DNA of 64,000 bases, taken from positions 124,001 through 188,000 of the forward strand of contig NZ_SWBQ01000006.1 in the NCBI RefSeq assembly GCF_005116445.1, given 5' to 3'. Origin of the DNA: Pedobacter frigoris. Its GTDB lineage: Bacteria > Bacteroidota > Bacteroidia > Sphingobacteriales > Sphingobacteriaceae. The notes under the pieces were generated by a model that saw only the letters and a list, made by a program, of their open reading frames with translations, was not told the DNA's origin and made no database searches. The translations under genes and the position numbers were made by a program. This document shows, one piece after another, positions 586 to 61,050 of the stretch. Each line of letters opens with the position of its first letter. Positions within the stretch are counted from its first letter, which is position 1.

Positions 586-3500
586 ATGAATTTAATTGTT
601 CAGCGCAAGCTATTGCTCCGCCTATGGAAGCATTTTTTACTTGTTAAAGACTTCACCACCAAATTTTCACTAGCCATGAAATTAACTGCTCTTTTAATAG
701 TTATAGCAAGTTTGCAGATCTCGGCTAAGTCATTCTCTCAGAAGATTACCATTTCGGTAAAGAACACTCCACTGAAAGAAGTATTGCAGGAAATCAGAAA
801 GCAAAGTGGTTACAAACTTGTTTACAATACCGATTTACTGAGTCAGGCCCGACCAGTAAGCATGTCTGTGCAGGAAGCATCTTTAAATGAGACGCTCAAT
901 AAAGCGATGACGAACCAGCCATTTTTATTTGAGATCGAAGGAGAAACCATTTTAATCAATCCCCGAATCCCTAAAGTCAGCAACTTGGCAAAGGCTGTGC
1001 AACAGGTAGTGATCACGGGTAAGGTTACCGACGGTAAAAATCCTTTGGCAGGCGCTACGGTAAGTGAGAAAAATACAACAAATGTGACCAAAACTAATGC
1101 TGAGGGTCAGTTTTCTTTGAAAATAGATAAAGCAGGTGCGACATTGGTGGTCAGCTATATTGGTTTTAACAAACGCGAGATTCCCGCTGCCACTACTTTT
1201 ATGAATATCGTTTTAGATGGCGGCGACTTAAACCTCGGAGAGGTAGTCGTTACCGGTTATCAGAAAGTAGATAAAAAGACATTTACAGGGTCTATAAGCC
1301 AGGTTGATAAAGAAATTGTCAACCGTTCAGGCTATACCGATGTTTCCAGAATGCTGCAGGGTGCTGCGGCGGGTGTAAGTGTGGAGAATGTGTCCGGTAC
1401 TTTTGGAGCAACTCCAAAGATCAGGATCAGGGGTAATGCATCTATCAGTGCCAATCAGGAACCATTGTATGTGATCAACGGGGTGCCTATTGCTTCACCG
1501 GCAAACGTCAATGTGAGCCAGCTGTATTCAGGAGATCCTGCGTCGTTGCTTGGTTCAGCTATTGCCGGATTGAGTGCTGCCGATATTGAAGACATTTCTA
1601 TTTTGAAAGATGGATCTGCAACAGCATTGTATGGCACAAGAGCAGCTAACGGTGTAATCTCCATCACCACCAGGAAAGGAAAAAAGAATTCCAGTATGAT
1701 CAATTTCAGTACGGCATATACCATTGGTGTTAAACCAAATATCAATGAATATAACGTCATGAACTCTGAGCAATCTATGGATCTTTCCTATGATTTATAC
1801 AATTACGGATACCTTTCAGTGCTGAACTATCCATCTACAACAGGTGCTTTTACTGATGCTTATATGAAATACGCATCAAACATGATCACTAAAGACCATT
1901 ACAATGCAACGCTAAACAGGGCCCGTTCTGTAAATACAGATTGGTTTGATGTGTTGTTTAAAAATAACCTGTTACAGGAACACAGTTTATCATTCTCTGG
2001 TGGTGGTGATAAGGCTACCTATTATTTATCAGGTAGTTATGCCGGCGATAATGGATCGGCTATAGGATACAACATGAAAAGGTACACAACGGATTTTCGT
2101 TTAAACCTAAACATTACCAGGAATTTTGATATTGATTTTAATGTGAATGCCTCATTGCGTAACCAGTTATCGCCAGGAACATTTAACAGTACACAGACCA
2201 ATTTCGAGACAACCCGCTCTTTTGAGCTGAACCCGGCAACATACGCATCTACTACCAGCAGAGCCATGTCACCATATGATGAAAATGGGAATCCACAGTA
2301 TTATCTGCGTAGTTATGCTCCTTTTAATATTCTGGAAGAACTTAAAGAGAATTTCAATACTCTGAAATCACAGGACATCAGGTTCTCTTTGAAGCCAACT
2401 TACAAGATCAGCAATACGCTTACTTTTGAGACGCTTTTGTCTGCCAGAAAAACCACAGCTAAATACGATCATGTAATCACAGAATATTCAAACGTGGCAA
2501 ATGCATATCGTGTGGCGACCAATGATAAATTAAGAGAGGCAAATTCACTGTTGTATAAAGATCCATCAGATCCGAATTCAATTCCGGAAACTATTCTGCC
2601 ACGTGGTGGTATACTTGATGCCCGCAACAACGATGGTAATTTCCTTTATATGAGGAATACCTTAAGTCTGAAAGAAAGCTGGAACAACAAACACAATCTG
2701 AATGTTTTTGGAGGTTTTGAAATCAGCTCAGATAGAACAAACAGTAATTTTACCCGTGGATATGGTTACCTGTATTACGGTGGTAAGATTGTTTCACCGA
2801 GTGTTCTGGCACTCAAGAGAGCTATAGAACGTGATGAAAGACTTTATACAGAAGGTTTTACCCAGGAGAACAGAACAGCTTTGTTTGTGTCTACCCAATA
2901 TAGCTTTGACAACAAGTACAATGTGGAGCTTGCAGGCAGGGTAGATGGTAATAACATGTTTGGAAGAAGAACTCAAACCCGCTTCCTGCCTAACTACAGT
3001 GCAGGTGTTTCCTGGAATGTTGACCGCGAAAATTTCTTCCGCGCCATCAATACCTCAGGAAAAATAGATTTTCTGAAACTGCGTGCCAGTTATGCTTTGC
3101 GTGGTAATGCTTACCAGTCGTCGCCAAACATCAATGCTAATTTTGTGAATTTAAACCGTCCGGATGTGATCAACAGTGAGATCGGGATCAGGATATTTGC
3201 CCCTGAATTGTACAGCTTAAGCTGGGAAAAAGATTATATCGCCAATATTGGTTTAGAAGCAGGATTATTTAATAAACTGACTATTGCTGCGGAATACTAT
3301 TCAAGAAACAACAATCAGCTGATCAAAGAAAGCACAGTTGGCTATGAAGATGGGTTTCCGACCAAGACCATCAACTGGGCATCGATGCGCAACAGAGGGG
3401 TTGATATTACCTTGGGTATAAGAGACATCGTGGCTACCAAAGATTTTAAGTGGAATGCCAATGTGATCTACGGATATGTAAAAAATACCATGACAGAAGG

Positions 3501-4230
3501 AGACGTATTCTCTCCATTGCTAACTGAGAAAACTAAACCTGAAGGATATGGGACTATCGGCAAGCCATTATATGGCCTGTATGCCTATCGTCTGGCCGGA
3601 TTGGATGCCAATGGACAACCTTTGTTCTATGATGGTAAGACTGGTAAAACAACCGATAATATACAACTTTCCAGCACAAATGATTCCTTGATTACTTATA
3701 TGGGGTCAAGACAACCTACTACAACAGGGTCACTGACAAATACTTTTAGTTATAAATCGATGGAATTAAGAGTATTCCTGACCTATAGCTTAGGAAACAA
3801 AGTGTTCAGGTCACCAATGGTCAACCGTGTCTACAACGATAACCTTGCAGCATCTCAGGATATTGATGCCCGCTGGCGTACTGCCGGTGATGAAAACCTG
3901 ACCAATATACCAGGTTTGGTATCAAGCATTCAGAACGCATATTTTACTTCTGCATTTATTCAGAATGAATTTGCCTATAACCGCAGTGATGCGATGGTAA
4001 CCAGTGCCAATGTATTACGCTTAAGTGAGGTGATGCTTTCTTATAATTTAGGAAGTAAGCTTTTGCAGAAGACTCCTTGGGTGAAAAGTGCGAGATTGAT
4101 GTTTTCTGCAAATAACGTCCATTTCTGGGCGAGTGGGAAGTTGCGTGGTGTAGATCCTCAGACCTTGATTACCGGGGTGAGTTTACCAAATCCAAGAAGT
4201 TATACATTAAGATTAATGGCACAGTTTTAA
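586..4230 (+). CDS. SusC/RagA-type TonB-dependent outer-membrane receptor with STN signalling domain
   Basis: The 1214-residue protein begins with a long basic leader and a signal peptide near residues 30-50. An STN (secretin/TonB N-terminal) domain follows at about 50-120 (LKEVLQEIRKQSGYKLVYN). Next come a carboxypeptidase-D-like regulatory domain at about 140-215 (VTGKVTDGKNPLAGATV), a TonB-box region (GEVVVTGYQ), a plug with the ISILKDGSATALYGTRAANGV signature and a C-terminal beta-barrel. SusC proteins pull oligomeric nutrients across the outer membrane with energy from TonB-ExbBD. The STN domain implies signalling to the upstream FecR. susD follows after 12 nt in the same operon. ATG at 676 would be a shorter alternative start, but long basic leaders are common in this family. 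Confidence 0.97.
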   Translation: MNLIVQRKLLLRLWKHFLLVKDFTTKFSLAMKLTALLIVIASLQISAKSFSQKITISVKNTPLKEVLQEIRKQSGYKLVYNTDLLSQARPVSMSVQEASLNETLNKAMTNQPFLFEIEGETILINPRIPKVSNLAKAVQQVVITGKVTDGKNPLAGATVSEKNTTNVTKTNAEGQFSLKIDKAGATLVVSYIGFNKREIPAATTFMNIVLDGGDLNLGEVVVTGYQKVDKKTFTGSISQVDKEIVNRSGYTDVSRMLQGAAAGVSVENVSGTFGATPKIRIRGNASISANQEPLYVINGVPIASPANVNVSQLYSGDPASLLGSAIAGLSAADIEDISILKDGSATALYGTRAANGVISITTRKGKKNSSMINFSTAYTIGVKPNINEYNVMNSEQSMDLSYDLYNYGYLSVLNYPSTTGAFTDAYMKYASNMITKDHYNATLNRARSVNTDWFDVLFKNNLLQEHSLSFSGGGDKATYYLSGSYAGDNGSAIGYNMKRYTTDFRLNLNITRNFDIDFNVNASLRNQLSPGTFNSTQTNFETTRSFELNPATYASTTSRAMSPYDENGNPQYYLRSYAPFNILEELKENFNTLKSQDIRFSLKPTYKISNTLTFETLLSARKTTAKYDHVITEYSNVANAYRVATNDKLREANSLLYKDPSDPNSIPETILPRGGILDARNNDGNFLYMRNTLSLKESWNNKHNLNVFGGFEISSDRTNSNFTRGYGYLYYGGKIVSPSVLALKRAIERDERLYTEGFTQENRTALFVSTQYSFDNKYNVELAGRVDGNNMFGRRTQTRFLPNYSAGVSWNVDRENFFRAINTSGKIDFLKLRASYALRGNAYQSSPNINANFVNLNRPDVINSEIGIRIFAPELYSLSWEKDYIANIGLEAGLFNKLTIAAEYYSRNNNQLIKESTVGYEDGFPTKTINWASMRNRGVDITLGIRDIVATKDFKWNANVIYGYVKNTMTEGDVFSPLLTEKTKPEGYGTIGKPLYGLYAYRLAGLDANGQPLFYDGKTGKTTDNIQLSSTNDSLITYMGSRQPTTTGSLTNTFSYKSMELRVFLTYSLGNKVFRSPMVNRVYNDNLAASQDIDARWRTAGDENLTNIPGLVSSIQNAYFTSAFIQNEFAYNRSDAMVTSANVLRLSEVMLSYNLGSKLLQKTPWVKSARLMFSANNVHFWASGKLRGVDPQTLITGVSLPNPRSYTLRLMAQF

Positions 4231-54056: not shown

Positions 54057-55385
54057 ATGGACGATTTTTTAGCTGCCCGCCTCCAGATGGCCTTTTCACT
54101 TGGCTTTCACATTATTTTTGCTTGTATTGGTATGGTAATGCCTTTTTTTATGTCAGTAGCACACTTTTATTGGCTTAAGACCAAAAATGTGGTCTACAGG
54201 GATGTTACCAAGGCCTGGAGTAGGGGTGTGGCTATTTTTTTCGCAACTGGTGCTGTTTCCGGGACTGTACTGTCATTTGAACTTGGTCTGCTCTGGCCCA
54301 AATTTATGGAGCATGCCGGACCTATATTTGGAATGCCGTTTTCTTTAGAGGGGACGGCATTTTTTATAGAGGCGATCGCATTGGGATTTTATTTGTACGG
54401 ATGGGATAAAATCAATGCCTGGTTTCATTGGGCTACGGGAGTTGTTGTTGGAATTAGCGGATTGTTGTCGGGGATACTTGTGGTTGCTGCAAATTCATGG
54501 ATGAACAGTCCTTCCGGTTTTGATTATATCAACGGGGAATACCTGAATATAGACCCTATTAAGGCTATGTTTAACGATGCGTGGTTTTCACAGGCATTAC
54601 ATATGTGTATTGCTGCTTTTGTCTCTACGGGTTTTGCAGTTGCTGGCGTACATGCTTTAATGATTTTGAGGGGTCGGAATGTGCAGTTTCATCATAAGGC
54701 TTTTAAGATCGCAGCAATATTCGGAACTGTAGCTGCTTGTCTGCAGCCCTTAAGCGGAGATATTTCTGCTAAAGATATTGCTAAACGCCAGCCCGAGAAA
54801 CTTGCAGCAATGGAAGCGCATTTTCATACTGAGAGAAATGCGCCGTTGATCATCGGCGGGATTCCGGATACAGCTAATAGCCGTGTGGATTATGCGATTA
54901 AGATACCTGGATTGCTGAGTTTTATGGCGACAGGCGATTTTAATGGGGAAGTAAAGGGATTGGATCAGGTGCCTAAGGAAGACAGACCTCCGGTTGCCAT
55001 TACACATTATGCTTTTCAGATTATGGTTGGTTTGGGTATGGCGATGGTGTTGATTTCCGTACTATACTTCATTGCCTTATGGAAAAAGAAATCCTGGATG
55101 GAAAGTAAATGGTTGATGAAGTTGTTCGTCATTGCTATACCTATGGGGTTCATTGCATTGGAGGCTGGGTGGACTGTCACTGAAGTAGGTCGCCAGCCCT
55201 GGATCATTAGAGGCATCATGCGTACCGCAGATGCAGTTACCCCAATGCCCGGTATCGCATATTCTTTTTATTTGTTTACCGCAGTTTATATCTCACTATC
55301 CATCATTGTGAGTTTATTGTTGTACAGGCAAATTACAATGGTGGGCAAGTTATATGATTCAACTGCTAAAGATTCTGAATTATGA
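54057..55385 (+). CDS. cydA: Cytochrome bd quinol oxidase subunit I
   Basis: The 442-residue protein has about nine membrane segments. Heme ligands are expected at His18 (SLGFHIIFACIG) and His182 (QALHMCIAAF). The quinol-site region KRQPEKLAAMEAHF and the TEVGRQPWI motif are present. The Q-loop is short, as in many non-enteric oxidases. It reduces O2 to water with electrons from quinol and gives microaerobic and nitrosative/sulfide-stress tolerance. cydB overlaps by 4 nt. Confidence 0.96.
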   Translation: MDDFLAARLQMAFSLGFHIIFACIGMVMPFFMSVAHFYWLKTKNVVYRDVTKAWSRGVAIFFATGAVSGTVLSFELGLLWPKFMEHAGPIFGMPFSLEGTAFFIEAIALGFYLYGWDKINAWFHWATGVVVGISGLLSGILVVAANSWMNSPSGFDYINGEYLNIDPIKAMFNDAWFSQALHMCIAAFVSTGFAVAGVHALMILRGRNVQFHHKAFKIAAIFGTVAACLQPLSGDISAKDIAKRQPEKLAAMEAHFHTERNAPLIIGGIPDTANSRVDYAIKIPGLLSFMATGDFNGEVKGLDQVPKEDRPPVAITHYAFQIMVGLGMAMVLISVLYFIALWKKKSWMESKWLMKLFVIAIPMGFIALEAGWTVTEVGRQPWIIRGIMRTADAVTPMPGIAYSFYLFTAVYISLSIIVSLLLYRQITMVGKLYDSTAKDSEL

Positions 55386-56383
55386 TATATGTAGTTATTG
55401 TTTTCCTCTGGACATCTATTCTTTTGTATATACTATTAGGCGGGGCTGATTTTGGTGCGGGAATAATCGAATTGCTTACGTCTAAGACCAATAAACCTAA
55501 GACGCGTAAAACGATGTATAAGGCAATTGGTCCGATATGGGAAGCCAATCATATGTGGCTGATCATAGCAATTGTGATCTTGTTCGTTGGTTTTCCAAAA
55601 ATTTATACCACAATATCCGTTTACCTTCATATACCTCTTGTATGTATGTTGTTGGGGATAATAGCGCGGGGAACTGCTTTTGTATTTAGAAATTATGATG
55701 CTGTAAAGGACGATATGCAGAAGATATACACGCCTATATTTGTTTATTCAAGTCTGATTACCCCCTTCTTTTTAGGGATTATTGCGGCCAGTTCAGTTTC
55801 CGGGCAAATCGATCCTCAGGCAAGTGATTTTTTATCTGCCTACGTATTTAGCTGGCTCAATTGGTTCTCAGTAGCTGTAGGCATTTTTACGGTCAGTATC
55901 TGTGGTTTTCTTGCAACTATTTTTATTATTGGCCAGACAGACAATGATGGCGACAGGCAGCATTTTGTAGGTAAAGCAAAGCGTACCATTTTTATCGTCA
56001 TGTTTTGCGGAGCTTTGGTTTTCATTGCTGCACATGTAGAACAGATACCTATTGTCGATTGGATATTTGGTGATACCCCTGGTCTGATAGCCATTATTGC
56101 GGCTAGTATTTCTTTGATTTTTATGTGGTATGCATTGAATAAAGATCAACCTATATCATTACGTCTGCTGGCAGGTTTTCAGGTGACAATGATTTTGTTT
56201 GCGGCTACGTATACTCATTTCCCCGACATCGTGTTGCTTAAGGGCGGTGCTAATCTGTCATTACTTACACATCAGGGGCAGGCAAAAACGATAGCATCAT
56301 TAGGCTATGCGCTCCTCATTGGGAGTATTTTTATATTACCTGCATTGGGTTATCTGATTTACATTTTTCAGCAGAAAAGGTAG
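55382..56383 (+). CDS. cydB: Cytochrome bd quinol oxidase subunit II
   Basis: The 333-residue protein has about eight membrane segments. The CydB start pattern is present (LWTSILLYILLGGADFGAGIIELL, GPIWEANHMWLIIAIVILFVGFPKIY). It overlaps cydA in ATGA, so translation is coupled. It forms the heterodimer with CydA. No cydX-like small gene and no cydDC assembly transporter are nearby. Confidence 0.95.
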   Translation: MIYVVIVFLWTSILLYILLGGADFGAGIIELLTSKTNKPKTRKTMYKAIGPIWEANHMWLIIAIVILFVGFPKIYTTISVYLHIPLVCMLLGIIARGTAFVFRNYDAVKDDMQKIYTPIFVYSSLITPFFLGIIAASSVSGQIDPQASDFLSAYVFSWLNWFSVAVGIFTVSICGFLATIFIIGQTDNDGDRQHFVGKAKRTIFIVMFCGALVFIAAHVEQIPIVDWIFGDTPGLIAIIAASISLIFMWYALNKDQPISLRLLAGFQVTMILFAATYTHFPDIVLLKGGANLSLLTHQGQAKTIASLGYALLIGSIFILPALGYLIYIFQQKR

Positions 56384-56485: not shown

Positions 56486-56899
56486 ATGGATCGGTTAATC
56501 ATAGAAGCAACATTTGAAGATGTAAATGAAATTTCTTTGTTGAAAAACAATAACGCTTTGGATCCAAATGCCACGTTGGTGCTTGGGTTTAAGATTGTAA
56601 ATACAGATCAGGTAATCCATGCTTTTTCAACATTGAAGAAAATCGCGGTGCAGCATTCTTTTGAACTTGTAATTTGTAAAACCATGAATGCCCGCATCTA
56701 TGATATTGAACTCAAAACAAATGGCCTTGACGAACCGGTAAGGATCAATAATAAAGCCATCACCAACGAAACTTTGGGATCTATCGAGGACGAGGCTACC
56801 AGTAAAACTGCAATGAGAATTGGACTTAATGTTAGTCCTGAAGAAAACTGGATACCTGTAACATCGATAAACATCAAAAATTGTGAGATTACATCCTAG
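56486..56899 (+). CDS. Hypothetical protein, 137 residues
   Basis: The protein is soluble and acidic, with no signal peptide or membrane segment (start MDRLIIEATFEDVNEISLL; middle VQHSFELVICKTMNARIYDIELK). No family is recognised. It starts 102 nt after cydB on the same strand and could be read through from it. Confidence 0.55.
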   Translation: MDRLIIEATFEDVNEISLLKNNNALDPNATLVLGFKIVNTDQVIHAFSTLKKIAVQHSFELVICKTMNARIYDIELKTNGLDEPVRINNKAITNETLGSIEDEATSKTAMRIGLNVSPEENWIPVTSINIKNCEITS

Positions 56900-57216: not shown

Positions 57217-58119
57217 ATGAAATCAGGATTCTCAAAAAATATGTTAAATACATTACTACTGGTTGGTTTTGGATTGACAGCTTCAGCACAGAAAGTTAAT
57301 GAATTACAGGAAGTGAGTATAGTAGCTCCCCACAGTCTGAAAATTGACGGTAAGAATTTTGAGTGGGCTGCTGCTGATTTTTCATCTAATAAGCGTACTA
57401 GTATTTCTTATATCATCAGTAACGATGACAAGAACCTGTACCTGGTAGTGAAATCTACTGATTTAACTAATAATAGTAAAATTCTGGCTGGGGGAATTAC
57501 TTTTTCTATCAATCCGGATGGTAAGAAGAAAGAAAAAGAAAGTCTGGCTCTTACTTACCCTAGTATTGCCCGCCCAACAAGAGGAGCTGGCGGACAAGGT
57601 GGCGGAATTAGAATGGATAGGGTAATGGGTGGCATGGGTGGAGGCGGAGGTACTCCGCTGACAACAAAGCAAAGGGATTCAGCTTCAGTAGCCAGATTAA
57701 GAACTCAATTGGTAACAGCGAAAGAGATCAAAATCAGTGGATTTAAAAAGACTACAGATACCTTGGTTTCGATTTATAATCAGTCGGGAATTAAAGCTTT
57801 TGCTTCTATTGATACAGCCAATACCTATTTTTATGAAGCAGCTATCCCTCTTGAGGAATTGGGAATTTCTGCCGATTCAGCAAAAGAATTTGCATATAAC
57901 ATCAAACTGAACGGATTGCAAATGCCAGGCTTTGATGGCGGTGGCGGCGGCGGCGGTCGTGGAGGATTCGGCGGTGGTGGTGGCGGCGGTCGCGGAGGTT
58001 TTGGTGGCGGTGGTGGTGGATTCGGCGGAGGCGGTGGTCAACGAGGTGGGGGAATAGATTTTCAAGCCCTGATGAGTCCTACAGATTTTTGGGGAAAATA
58101 TACTTTATCCAAAAAATAG
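57217..58119 (+). CDS. Secreted glycine-rich protein with CBM9/DOMON-like fold
   Basis: The 300-residue protein has a signal peptide (LLLVGFGLTASAQ). Residues about 35-110 and 165-235 show the beta-sandwich pattern of family-9-like sugar/heme-binding modules (HSLKIDGKNFEWAAADF, SYIISNDDKNLYLVVKSTD, TYFYEAAIPLEELG, YNIKLNGLQMPG). A Gly-rich insert (about 125-150) splits the module, and a long Gly/Arg/Phe-rich tract of GGGGGxGG units spans about 242-282. The last residues (FQALMSPTDFWGKYTLSK) are conserved-looking. It precedes an outer-membrane beta-barrel gene by 63 nt and may be its surface or periplasmic partner. Confidence 0.7.
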   Translation: MKSGFSKNMLNTLLLVGFGLTASAQKVNELQEVSIVAPHSLKIDGKNFEWAAADFSSNKRTSISYIISNDDKNLYLVVKSTDLTNNSKILAGGITFSINPDGKKKEKESLALTYPSIARPTRGAGGQGGGIRMDRVMGGMGGGGGTPLTTKQRDSASVARLRTQLVTAKEIKISGFKKTTDTLVSIYNQSGIKAFASIDTANTYFYEAAIPLEELGISADSAKEFAYNIKLNGLQMPGFDGGGGGGGRGGFGGGGGGGRGGFGGGGGGFGGGGGQRGGGIDFQALMSPTDFWGKYTLSKK

Positions 58120-58137
58120 GTACTAATCTCTAGTACC
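58119..58137 (+). promoter_or_regulatory. Intercistronic hairpin between the Gly-rich and beta-barrel genes
   Basis: GGTACTA (58119-58125) and TAGTACC (58131-58137) pair perfectly around 5 nt, beginning at the last base of the stop codon. No T-run follows. It could be an mRNA-stability element; the following leader is CA-rich and unstructured. Confidence 0.45.
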
Positions 58138-58182
58138 GAAATCCAGCACAACACACACAAACCAAACCATATAAACACACAA

Positions 58183-61050
58183 ATGAATTATTTTAATCCG
58201 GTCACGGCCCCAGGGCCGGGCCATTCTATGGGCGTGAATTACGCCAGGCTTTGTAAACTGGCCGTTGTACTGTTTTTGTTGATAAGCAGCACAGCTAAGG
58301 TATCAGCGCAACAGCCAGCAAAAAGAGAGACACCACCACCTTTGCCTACCAGAGAAATTAGTGGAATCGTAAAAGATACACTTGACCTCGGTCTTCCAGG
58401 AGCTACAGTAAGTTTAACCTCGGACAAGGATACTTTAAAAACTTCAACTAATAATGATGGTATCTTCGTGTTTAAAGATGTAAAATCTGCTACTTATACT
58501 ATTGTGGTGCAAAGCTTGGGGTATCTTAAAACTTCGCCAATGCGTTTCAAACAAAATGACTTGACTCCGCGAATTGTCATGGATCCAATTGTCATGAAAG
58601 AAGAAAAAAACACCTTAAATACTGTAGTCATCAATGGCACGCCTTCAATTACCTATAAGACAGATACGGTAGAGTATAAAGCAAGTGATTATGTGGTCAG
58701 GGCAAACTCTATGGTTGATGAGCTATTGAAGAAAATGGAGGGAATGGAAGTTGGGAGTGACGGATCGCTTGTGCATAATGGCGAATCTGTTCTAAGGGCT
58801 AAACTAAATGGAAAGGAATTTCTGGGCGGCGATGTCGCTAATGCAATTAAAAATCTCCCTGCCGAAATTGTAGATAAAATACAGATTGTGGACGACTACG
58901 GTGATCAGGCTGCGCGTACCGGTGTTAAAGACGGCGATCCTCAAAAAATATTGAACATTACAACCAGAACTGATAAATCTGTTGGAAATATAGTAAGATT
59001 AAGTGGCGCTGGGGGAAGCAATGACCGTTATAATGGTGAGATTAATGGAACCAGGATTAATCAAAATCAAACGATTGGTGTAGATTCAAAATACAGAAAT
59101 ACAGTAAATGGCGTTGGAGGGGGAGGCACTGGAGGTACAACTACATCTGGAGAGGCTTCGTTTAGTATCCGGGACAAAATAGGTAAAAATGTTAATTTCA
59201 ACGTTAACTATAAGTATGACGGAAATGATCAGCTTAATTTAAGCAGTACTTTTTCCAAATCAGTGACGAACCTAAGAAATATACTTAAACTTCAAACGGA
59301 TTCACTTGTAAACACCTTTACTACCAGAGGCAGTCAAAGGACTAATGATTCCAGAGGCCATAATTTTAGGGCAGAAATAGAGATCAATCTGGATAGTAAT
59401 GATTACTTAAGCTTTAGGCCTTCAATTAATTATTCATCATCTTCTTCAAATCAGGCAGACACTTCATATCAAACAGGTTACAGACACCAATATCAGGTTA
59501 ATGCAAATTCTTCTAGCAGTAAAAGTCCACAATTGGGATTGGTGGTTGGATATCAACATCGTTTTGATAAGTTAAGAAGGAATTTCTTTGTTGAGGGAGA
59601 GGTAAGAACAAATAACAGAAGCAGCGATTCGGATCAGGATCTTTTTCTAAGATACTTTTTGAATGAAGACGAATCGGAAAAAAGTGATTCCCTGGCCTAT
59701 AGGCTAAGATTAAACAAAAATTTAAATACAAGCTATAGAGGTAGCATGACTTATGTGGAGCCGCTGAGTACAAATACTCAAATTGAATTAAATGCCCAGG
59801 TTAACTATAACGGTTACGACAATAATGCTACTACCAGAAATCGGGTAAACGGCGGAGTTTCTCAGGTAATTGATTCACTGAGTAATATTTTTAATTATTC
59901 ATTTACCCAAGCCAGGTTTGCCGTGAATTTCAGATATGGAATGAGTAATACGTCAAGAATCAGGTTTTCTGCCGGACTTACCGCAGTGCCTGCATTATTG
60001 TCTGGAACAAAAGTCAGCTTAGGTACTACGACGAGGAGAAGTAGTTTTAACCTGATTCCGATAGCCCGGATGGAATATTTATGGTCAAGACAGCACAAAG
60101 TTGCATTAAACTACTCAGGGAATGCTTCTGAGCCGACCTTCGACCAGATTCAGCCGGTACGGGATGTAACTAACCCTAATAATGCAGTTATAGGTAATCC
60201 AAATCTTAAAGCCAGATTTGTTCATACCATACGGTCAGATTACAATAACTATATCGCAAATTCAAAGTTGAATTATTCAATAGGAGTGAATGCCTCATTT
60301 AATCAGAATGATGTAATATCAAGTTCTGTTGATATTGATGATCCAAACGTCATAGTTAAGCCAGGACAGAATCCTGTCAAAATTCGAGAGACCAGGTATA
60401 TAAATATGAACGGTGTCTATAGGATTGGCGGAAACTACAACATCAGTAAACAACTAAATAATAGGAAATACAATTTATCGTTAAGCGGATCAGCAAATTA
60501 TAATAACAGGATTACCATGACAAATGGTGAAAAAAATATCAATATTGTAAAAAGCTTTAGAGAAAGTTTTGGTCCGAGAATAAATCCTACCGACTGGTTT
60601 GAGATCAATCCCTATGTTTCATATAACCACCAAACCTCTGATAATACAGTTTTAAAAAATCAGTCTGAAACAAATACACTGGCATTTAATGTTGATGGAA
60701 CAGTTTATTTTCTGAGAAGCTGGATCTTTAAGTATAACGCAAGTAAAAACTATATAAGTGGGATCAATGCAAATATTAACAATAATCCGTTCGTAATTAA
60801 TGCAACCCTTGAAAAGGAATTGTTCAACAGAAGAGGAAGAGTTACAGTTCAGGCATTTGATGTTCTAAATCAAAATAACTTTGTAAACCGTGATTTTAAT
60901 GATACCGGTGGTTATACAGATACCAAATCAAACGCAGTTAGCCGCTACTTCATGGTAGGATTGAGCGTGCGTTTGCAAAAATGGAGTGGTGCCAAAGGCG
61001 GTCGCGACGGAAGAGGCATCCGACGCCGTGGAGATGGTAGCTTTATGTAA
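58183..61050 (+). CDS. Outer-membrane beta-barrel protein with carboxypeptidase-like domain (TonB-receptor-like)
   Basis: The 955-residue protein has a long leader and a signal peptide cut near residue 43 (TAKVSAQQ). A carboxypeptidase-D-like domain follows (REISGIVKDTLDLGLPGATVSLTS), then a plug-like region (SYVVRANSMVDELLKKMEGMEVGSD-type, with LPAEIVDKIQIVDDYGDQAARTG) and a large beta-barrel of the OMP_b-brl_3 type. The C-terminus is basic and Gly/Arg-rich (KGGRDGRGIRRRGDGSFM) and lacks the usual aromatic last residue. It is probably a transport or assembly channel paired with the Gly-rich protein upstream. Confidence 0.88.
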   Translation: MNYFNPVTAPGPGHSMGVNYARLCKLAVVLFLLISSTAKVSAQQPAKRETPPPLPTREISGIVKDTLDLGLPGATVSLTSDKDTLKTSTNNDGIFVFKDVKSATYTIVVQSLGYLKTSPMRFKQNDLTPRIVMDPIVMKEEKNTLNTVVINGTPSITYKTDTVEYKASDYVVRANSMVDELLKKMEGMEVGSDGSLVHNGESVLRAKLNGKEFLGGDVANAIKNLPAEIVDKIQIVDDYGDQAARTGVKDGDPQKILNITTRTDKSVGNIVRLSGAGGSNDRYNGEINGTRINQNQTIGVDSKYRNTVNGVGGGGTGGTTTSGEASFSIRDKIGKNVNFNVNYKYDGNDQLNLSSTFSKSVTNLRNILKLQTDSLVNTFTTRGSQRTNDSRGHNFRAEIEINLDSNDYLSFRPSINYSSSSSNQADTSYQTGYRHQYQVNANSSSSKSPQLGLVVGYQHRFDKLRRNFFVEGEVRTNNRSSDSDQDLFLRYFLNEDESEKSDSLAYRLRLNKNLNTSYRGSMTYVEPLSTNTQIELNAQVNYNGYDNNATTRNRVNGGVSQVIDSLSNIFNYSFTQARFAVNFRYGMSNTSRIRFSAGLTAVPALLSGTKVSLGTTTRRSSFNLIPIARMEYLWSRQHKVALNYSGNASEPTFDQIQPVRDVTNPNNAVIGNPNLKARFVHTIRSDYNNYIANSKLNYSIGVNASFNQNDVISSSVDIDDPNVIVKPGQNPVKIRETRYINMNGVYRIGGNYNISKQLNNRKYNLSLSGSANYNNRITMTNGEKNINIVKSFRESFGPRINPTDWFEINPYVSYNHQTSDNTVLKNQSETNTLAFNVDGTVYFLRSWIFKYNASKNYISGINANINNNPFVINATLEKELFNRRGRVTVQAFDVLNQNNFVNRDFNDTGGYTDTKSNAVSRYFMVGLSVRLQKWSGAKGGRDGRGIRRRGDGSFM

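Follow-up and report, generated by a model that had tools for sequence, protein, structure and literature searches.

A secreted protein rich in glycine (Gly) and an outer-membrane β-barrel are encoded side by side in a 64,000-nucleotide (nt) stretch of the Pedobacter frigoris genome (contig NZ_SWBQ01000006.1; hereafter the window), and the Gly-rich subfamily and the barrel form a conserved two-gene unit in the Pedobacter group. The first gene (57217–58119, forward strand) encodes 300 residues with a predicted CBM9/DOMON-like fold, and the second (58183–61050, forward strand) encodes a predicted 955-residue outer-membrane barrel of the TonB-dependent-transporter type; the two open reading frames (ORFs) are 63 nt apart. 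These assignments come from the ORF list and fold searches, together with Pfam for the barrel. We tentatively favor a model in which the unit is an operon for a TonB-dependent-type transporter and a soluble, probably periplasmic accessory subunit dedicated to it.

The closest named relatives of the Gly-rich gene in our collection scan come from Pedobacter genomes. The 80 named loci analyzed, the best of 136 relatives, are therefore biased toward the paired subfamily; they span Pedobacter, Mucilaginibacter, Nubsella, Daejeonella, Hufsiella, Paradesertivirga, Pararcticibacter, and other genera. In 78 of them, the Gly-rich gene is followed immediately by the barrel gene, in the same orientation and with a gap of −43 to 153 nt. 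Other recurring neighbors are one gene family (24 loci), cydA-like genes (18), and cydB-like genes (18). Trees of the two partners were compared over 76 pairs, after L114, L140, L152, and L178 had been dropped; their patristic distances correlate (r = 0.69), and none of 999 permutations gave as high a value. In four of the five genomes with two pairs, the nearest relative from another genome is the same for each Gly-rich protein and its own barrel. The residue conservation described below refers to alignments of 57 of the 81 Gly-rich proteins (the window copy and the 80 loci) and 33 of the 77 complete barrels.

The barrel also has a conserved C terminus. A disordered extension of ∼20 residues follows the last strand and closes with the peptide RRGDGSF (residues 948–954; 61024–61044, from alignments and model); it is conserved and not of low complexity. 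Barrels end in RRGDGSF plus 0–3 residues in 75 of the 80 loci. The others are L143, which has RMGDGSF, L140, cut by a contig end, L152, which ends early, and L114 and L178, which have no barrel downstream and hence no tail. With near-constant adjacency and a nearly unchanging seven-residue tail, the two proteins look like parts of one machine.

The peptide is carried by 18 of 19 aligned barrels, the end of L099 being altered. Among 30 barrels from a relatives search, it is present on all 17 members of the paired clade and on none of 13 related outsiders, and therefore does not characterize barrels in general. C-terminal extensions as such are not unique to the clade, since 2 of the 13 outsiders (L058 and L060) have other Gly/Arg-containing extensions behind the last strand. 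Tandem barrels outside the clade were also seen (L060 and G001:C29:50862–56499), and in one of them the C terminus is a genuine Gly/Arg-rich low-complexity tail, RGRGGNGGGGFGGGRQRN. Across 399 genomes of the family, 123 of 150 pattern matches listed encode RRGDGSF, and 100 of these 123 sites have a listed Gly-protein match 2.77–3.12 kb upstream on the same strand, as against 0 of 27 for other peptides. Read from the Gly-rich side, a site lies 2.77–3.12 kb downstream on the same strand for the top 60 of 60, 83 of 90, and 100 of 150 listed matches. These counts rest on the 150 matches listed per table, and further matches exist; the 100 tails were assigned from their distance and orientation, and not every one was read as a barrel. 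Literature searches for RRGDGSF, RGDGSF, and GDGSFM gave nothing related among the matches listed, and excerpts of the Bacteroidota β-barrel assembly machinery (BAM) literature on C-terminal signals gave no lead.

The barrel scores 114 bits against PF14905 (cut-off 27, E = 1e-32) and also matches CarboxypepD_reg; PF14905 and PF13715 match all 33 aligned relatives. Its N-terminal extension (CarbopepD_reg_2/PF13715 by Pfam, residues 59–150; 58357–58632) is followed by a putative TonB-box-like string, LNTVVI (residues 145–150; 58615–58632), assigned by position and by resemblance to VDEVVV; Leu145 is invariant and Val148 is at least 90% conserved. VDEVVV is the TonB box of the SusC protein Bt1763, at the matching place, according to an excerpt of PMC7782687. 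Foldseek with the barrel model (pLDDT, predicted local distance difference test, 72.4; pTM, predicted template modeling score, 0.62) retrieved Cir (E = 1.5e-16), and all 50 rows listed are TonB-dependent transporters. BtuB superposes with Z 17.3 and a root-mean-square deviation (rmsd) of 5.2 over 414 aligned residues, and HasR and BtuB1 are also among the likenesses. The window barrel has no match to TIGR04056 (SusC/RagA), which matches 2 of 33 relatives, and Pfam finds no POTRA domain of two-partner secretion (TpsB) in the barrel or the 33 relatives. By domain matches and modeled fold, the barrel is thus assigned to the TonB-dependent-transporter type, with a SusC-like N-terminal extension.

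In known transporters, strand 1 starts in the periplasm. If this holds here, a Gly-rich inter-strand loop (∼residues 310–323; 59110–59151, between model strands 296–308 and 317–333 and variable in length) would lie outside the cell, and the C-terminal extension would be periplasmic. An integrin-type reading of the RGD within the tail was dropped because the C terminus should face the periplasm.

The Gly-rich protein begins with a signal peptide (identified by eye; 57217–57288) cleaved, as predicted, between Ala24 and Gln25, each at least 90% conserved. This fits the Q-rule, the Ala-Gln cleavage described for signal-peptidase-I substrates of Bacteroidetes in an excerpt of PMC5837995. The AlphaFold2 model from 57 sequences (pLDDT 78.9, pTM 0.74) is a β-sandwich with two Gly-rich inserts of pLDDT below 50: insert 1 (residues 123–143; 57583–57645), of variable length, and insert 2 (residues 241–277; 57937–58047), in which 30 of 37 residues are Gly and whose DNA holds 2.4 copies of a 33-base tandem unit. 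Gly makes up 19.3% of the protein, which contains no Cys. Its richest 30-residue segment has 25 Gly, against a maximum of 16 in 2000 shuffles, and the next-highest such segment among the 34 ORFs of at least 200 residues in the window has 9. Behind insert 2, a short helix and the last strand complete the sandwich (residues 282–296; 58060–58104, from model and alignment). Phe291, Trp292, and Tyr295 are invariant, and the block holding the strand (residues 289–296) is predicted with pLDDT 88–93; insert 2 is therefore an insert and not a tail.

Pfam assigns the window protein to no family, and TIGR04145 gives weak matches to 24 of 57 relatives (best E = 1.7e-5). Sequence searches for relatives of solved structure were set aside: phmmer matches fell mostly in the Gly tract, to linkers of antibodies and fusion proteins, and a profile search gave just two linker-like stretches, with no CBM9 chain among the matches listed. 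By structure (VIA-align), the model superposes on the CBM9 module 7nwn (Z 11.9, rmsd 3.4, 154 aligned) and on EbdC, the heme-binding γ subunit of ethylbenzene dehydrogenase (2ivf_C; Z 11.5, rmsd 3.3, 159 aligned). The cytochrome domain of cellobiose dehydrogenase, which we take to be a DOMON domain, ranks lower (Z 7.5, rmsd 3.7, 139 aligned). The protein is thus predicted to be a CBM9/DOMON-like sandwich with two disordered inserts, secreted through the general secretory (Sec) pathway. CBM9 carbohydrate-binding modules have a sugar-stacking Trp pair; the common fold alone does not reveal the ligand of the Gly-rich protein.

A lipobox-like string occurs in 1 of the 80 named loci, in which the Ala-Gln cleavage pattern was scored permissively. 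NCBIfam matches include no C-terminal sorting domain of the type IX secretion system (T9SS) in the window protein or the 57 aligned members, and neither Pfam nor NCBIfam finds a SusD match in the window protein. The signal-peptidase-I type start, the lack of Cys, and the lack of a T9SS domain fit a periplasmic protein, which is the probable location judging from the sequence, and they lend no support to the surface system that the original prediction had proposed.

Other parts of that prediction fared unevenly. Its receptor-like barrel is borne out by PF14905, CarboxypepD_reg, and the fold. Its Gly-rich sandwich does hold two Gly stretches; the second, taken for a trailing tract, is followed by strand 289–296. 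The barrel was said to end in a basic Gly/Arg-rich C terminus instead of the usual aromatic end. A Gly/Arg-bearing extension is indeed present, holding the conserved RRGDGSF, while the last strand (residues 922–935; 60946–60987, from the model and alignment) keeps its aromatic end LQKW (YFMVGLSVRLQKW), with Trp934 invariant. The barrel's own Gly-rich piece is the inter-strand loop, not the C terminus. Matched low-complexity tails, offered as a reason for the pairing, are rejected: Gly-Gly counts show a negative correlation between Gly-rich protein and barrel (rho = −0.40, n = 76, with the four loci dropped from the trees again left out; uncorrected for relatedness), the barrel tail is a conserved peptide, and solo Gly-rich homologs without a nearby barrel also have Gly tracts.

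In the model we favor, the two genes would be co-transcribed, and the barrel, with its N-terminal extension, plug, and transporter-type barrel domain, would sit in the outer membrane and may draw its energy from TonB. The Gly-rich protein would be exported by Sec, cleaved at Ala-Gln, and remain periplasmic, as a sandwich bearing two flexible Gly-rich loops. It would work with the periplasmic face of the barrel, perhaps in direct contact, to receive or present a ligand or to stabilize the receptor. The periplasmic extension ending in RRGDGSF would be the best candidate docking site for the Gly-rich protein or for another partner, and possibly the peptide holds the accessory subunit in place of a lipid anchor.

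Several observations weigh against this model. An earlier survey of 59 relatives found a Gly-protein match in 38 genomes. Of 39 Gly loci fetched, 21 adjoin a barrel (L080 and L091 adjoin distantly similar barrels, and that of L075 was read in two pieces), and 18 have no adjacent barrel. Pairing is therefore a property of a subfamily; the co-occurrence that the original prediction put forward stands for that subfamily (78 of the best 80 loci, and paralogs in four of five genomes), not for the wider family. Similarly, 50 of the 150 Gly matches listed in the family have no exact tail listed downstream. In the partner trees, nearest neighbors agree in just 48 of 76 pairs, and species history accounts in part for the tree agreement, though less for the paralog test. 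The moderate-quality barrel model shows more than 22 strand segments, 22 being the number expected of a TonB-dependent transporter. Scans for transcription signals reveal neither a promoter nor a shared transcript for the pair: a Bacteroidetes-type promoter pattern has 3 matches in the window, none near the operon (4.1 expected by chance), and sigma-70-like sites (20 versus 16.6 expected) and terminator-like sites (4 versus 3.4) are near chance in the window.

The tail itself can occur without the partner. Among the 23 exact tails with no listed upstream Gly match, 20 were read, G000:C18 was read as L062, and G147 and G024:C7 were left out. The 20 comprise 13 true tail-bearing barrels, 1 internal peptide, and 6 sites without a barrel. 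Four of the 13 barrels still lie by a Gly gene or paired unit: L181, with the Gly gene directly downstream; L190, with a convergent Gly gene (weak match, E = 4e-4); L200, with an upstream Gly gene split over two frames; and L184, an additional barrel in tandem behind a Gly-barrel pair. Gly genes near these tails were sought first on the tail's strand and then on both strands. For ten RRGDGSF barrels, the DNA read (14 kb for L062; 5 kb each for L186–L188, L191–L194, L197, and L199) contains no Gly-family match in either orientation, and G320, a genome with a partnerless tail-bearing barrel, had no Gly-protein match at E 1e-8. Tail and partner are therefore separable, and a strict need of RRGDGSF for a linked Gly gene is rejected on account of the ten barrels. 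The peptide is a marker of the barrel clade that usually accompanies the partner and does not depend on it. L062:4952–7828 is a second RRGDGSF-tailed barrel of the window's own genome, and a divergent 140-residue Gly-containing ORF lies upstream of it on the opposite strand. Five partnerless barrels from another genus of the family (L186, L187, L188, L191, and L193) have a Gly/Arg/Asn-rich stretch right behind the signal peptide (e.g., NRRGGGGNGNGN), as though Gly-rich sequence had been relocated onto the barrel.

That ten barrels keep the tail although no Gly gene lies in the DNA read around them is also what would be expected if the Gly-rich protein were a periplasmic ligand binder that takes substrate after transport, linked to the barrel functionally and not physically, with the tail serving, for example, barrel biogenesis. 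CBM9/DOMON is a ligand-binding fold class, which suits this explanation too. The confinement of the tail to the paired clade (17/17 versus 0/13) and the co-inheritance of paralogous partners in four of five cases speak against this reading, and we consider a purely functional link possible but improbable.

Homologs from more distant genomes bear on the origin of the subunit. Across the phylum, 40 of 395 genomes match the Gly-rich protein, and 29 loci (L201–L229; 23 outside the family and 6 inside) were read with ∼1.5 kb on each side, so that a more distant barrel would be missed. A lipobox-like string, scored with a permissive pattern, lies near the start of 18 of the 23 outside-family homologs, several of which have Gly tracts, and in 1 of the 6 inside-family loci (L213, doubtful). 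A barrel match within ∼1.5 kb was found in 1 of 23 outside-family loci (L215) and 2 of 6 inside-family loci. Within the limits of short loci and a permissive pattern, this suggests a lipoprotein ancestor that lost its anchor where a barrel partner was gained. A bolder version, in which a CBM9-like ancestral lipoprotein with Gly loops gave up its lipid anchor in the Pedobacter family and the transporter now retains it at the outer membrane through RRGDGSF, strikes us as unlikely. A distant Gly-rich homolog from another family, with a lipoprotein-like start (SSCSHK), precedes a different barrel of 879 residues (L080:6851–10377). Some genomes from another genus of the family, such as G414 and G434, have 7–8 Gly-protein matches each, and copies stand side by side in some genomes (e.g., G391:C81).

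The layout of the pair recalls SusC/SusD (e.g., Bt1763/Bt1762), with which it has in common the PF13715 extension followed by a TonB-box-like string, a transporter-type barrel, and a partner gene alongside. In contrast, the window barrel has no TIGR04056 match and carries a conserved C-terminal extension, and its partner has neither a SusD match nor Cys. The BtuB/BtuG and XusA/XusB systems of Bacteroides likewise combine a TonB-dependent transporter with a dedicated partner, and both barrels are among the fold matches; the window partner differs in being soluble and probably a periplasmic CBM9/DOMON-like protein, whereas partners of the BtuG and XusB type are surface lipoproteins according to structure entry titles and the title of PMC10404256. 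This SusCD-like layout and the resemblance of the barrel to HasR and BtuB1, among other transporters, would also suit a partner that acts as a surface lid or resembles a hemophore (compare SusC/SusD, BtuB/BtuG, and HasR/HasA). No lipid anchor is evident (1 lipobox-like string in 80 loci; the window protein lacks Cys), and neither SusD nor T9SS families gave a match, which makes such an arrangement quite unlikely.

Oar/PopC of Myxococcus xanthus resembles the pair in that a TonB-dependent transporter is tied to one specific protein. According to an excerpt of PMC6434023, Oar is required for secretion of PopC, a protease without a signal peptide; the window pair gives no such evidence. By this published precedent, the barrel might export the Gly-rich protein to the surface or the medium, and in 78 of 80 loci the gene immediately preceding the barrel is indeed cargo-like. 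We judge export very unlikely, however, as no export signal was seen, a folded sandwich of this size would be demanding cargo, 18 of 39 loci are solo copies without a barrel next door, and 18 of 23 outside-family homologs have lipobox-like starts. Least probable of all is co-location without joint function, an old neighborhood kept by descent, since, although the 80 loci come from related genera and the trees agree partly on account of species history, the pair stays while other neighbors differ between lineages and paralogous pairs repeat the arrangement elsewhere in the same genome.

Pairs of a GLPGLI protein (PF09697) and a CarboxypepD_reg/barrel protein also place a small secreted protein by a barrel and are found near solo Gly-rich genes. 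They differ in that the window Gly-rich protein has no PF09697 match and the GLPGLI-side barrel stops with its last strand (MLKATFNF) and lacks the extension. In L083, a GLPGLI protein gene (2776–3732) overlaps the gene for an 886-residue barrel (119–2779) by 4 nt, and this barrel has weak similarity to that of the window. L078, L088, L089, L090, and L094 have a similar layout by ORF size; PF09697 was checked in L083 and L068 only. The likeness to CBM9 modules and to DOMON/EbdC heme domains lies in the fold; sequence identity is 11–12%, and the window protein has no Pfam match and has two Gly-rich inserts. No window-type pair appeared among the matches listed in the literature on CBM9 or DOMON with a TonB receptor or SusC, nor did the Gly-rich protein and barrel pair itself appear among the matches listed in a search covering few subscription journals. 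The same holds for the matches listed on Gly-rich proteins with TonB receptors in Pedobacter, on GLPGLI proteins, on accessory proteins with C-terminal tails, and on PF14905, a family that one listed paper names a single time, in a table.

Upstream of the pair lie two ORFs (54057–56383) that we take, from their sequences, to be cydA and cydB. A 137-residue ORF (56486–56899) without a credible Pfam or NCBIfam match separates the cydB-like ORF from the Gly-rich gene, and a similar-looking ORF occupies position −1 in 6 of the 80 loci. The gene family found in 24 of the 80 loci is at position −1, before the Gly-barrel pair, in 23; one member is a subtilase (L072:273–2036, PF00082).

Many TonB-dependent-type barrels of Bacteroidota have partners and ligands yet to be found, and to our knowledge the partners are mostly surface lipoproteins. 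If the anchor did switch from lipid to transporter, the transporter would have gained a periplasmic subunit of its own, and RRGDGSF would be a docking motif of a new type. The RRGDGSF signature alone is useful for annotating the barrel clade. A soluble, periplasmic-type partner together with this seven-residue signature, if our model is correct, would provide a handle on what the clade moves and on how a transporter comes to own its subunit.

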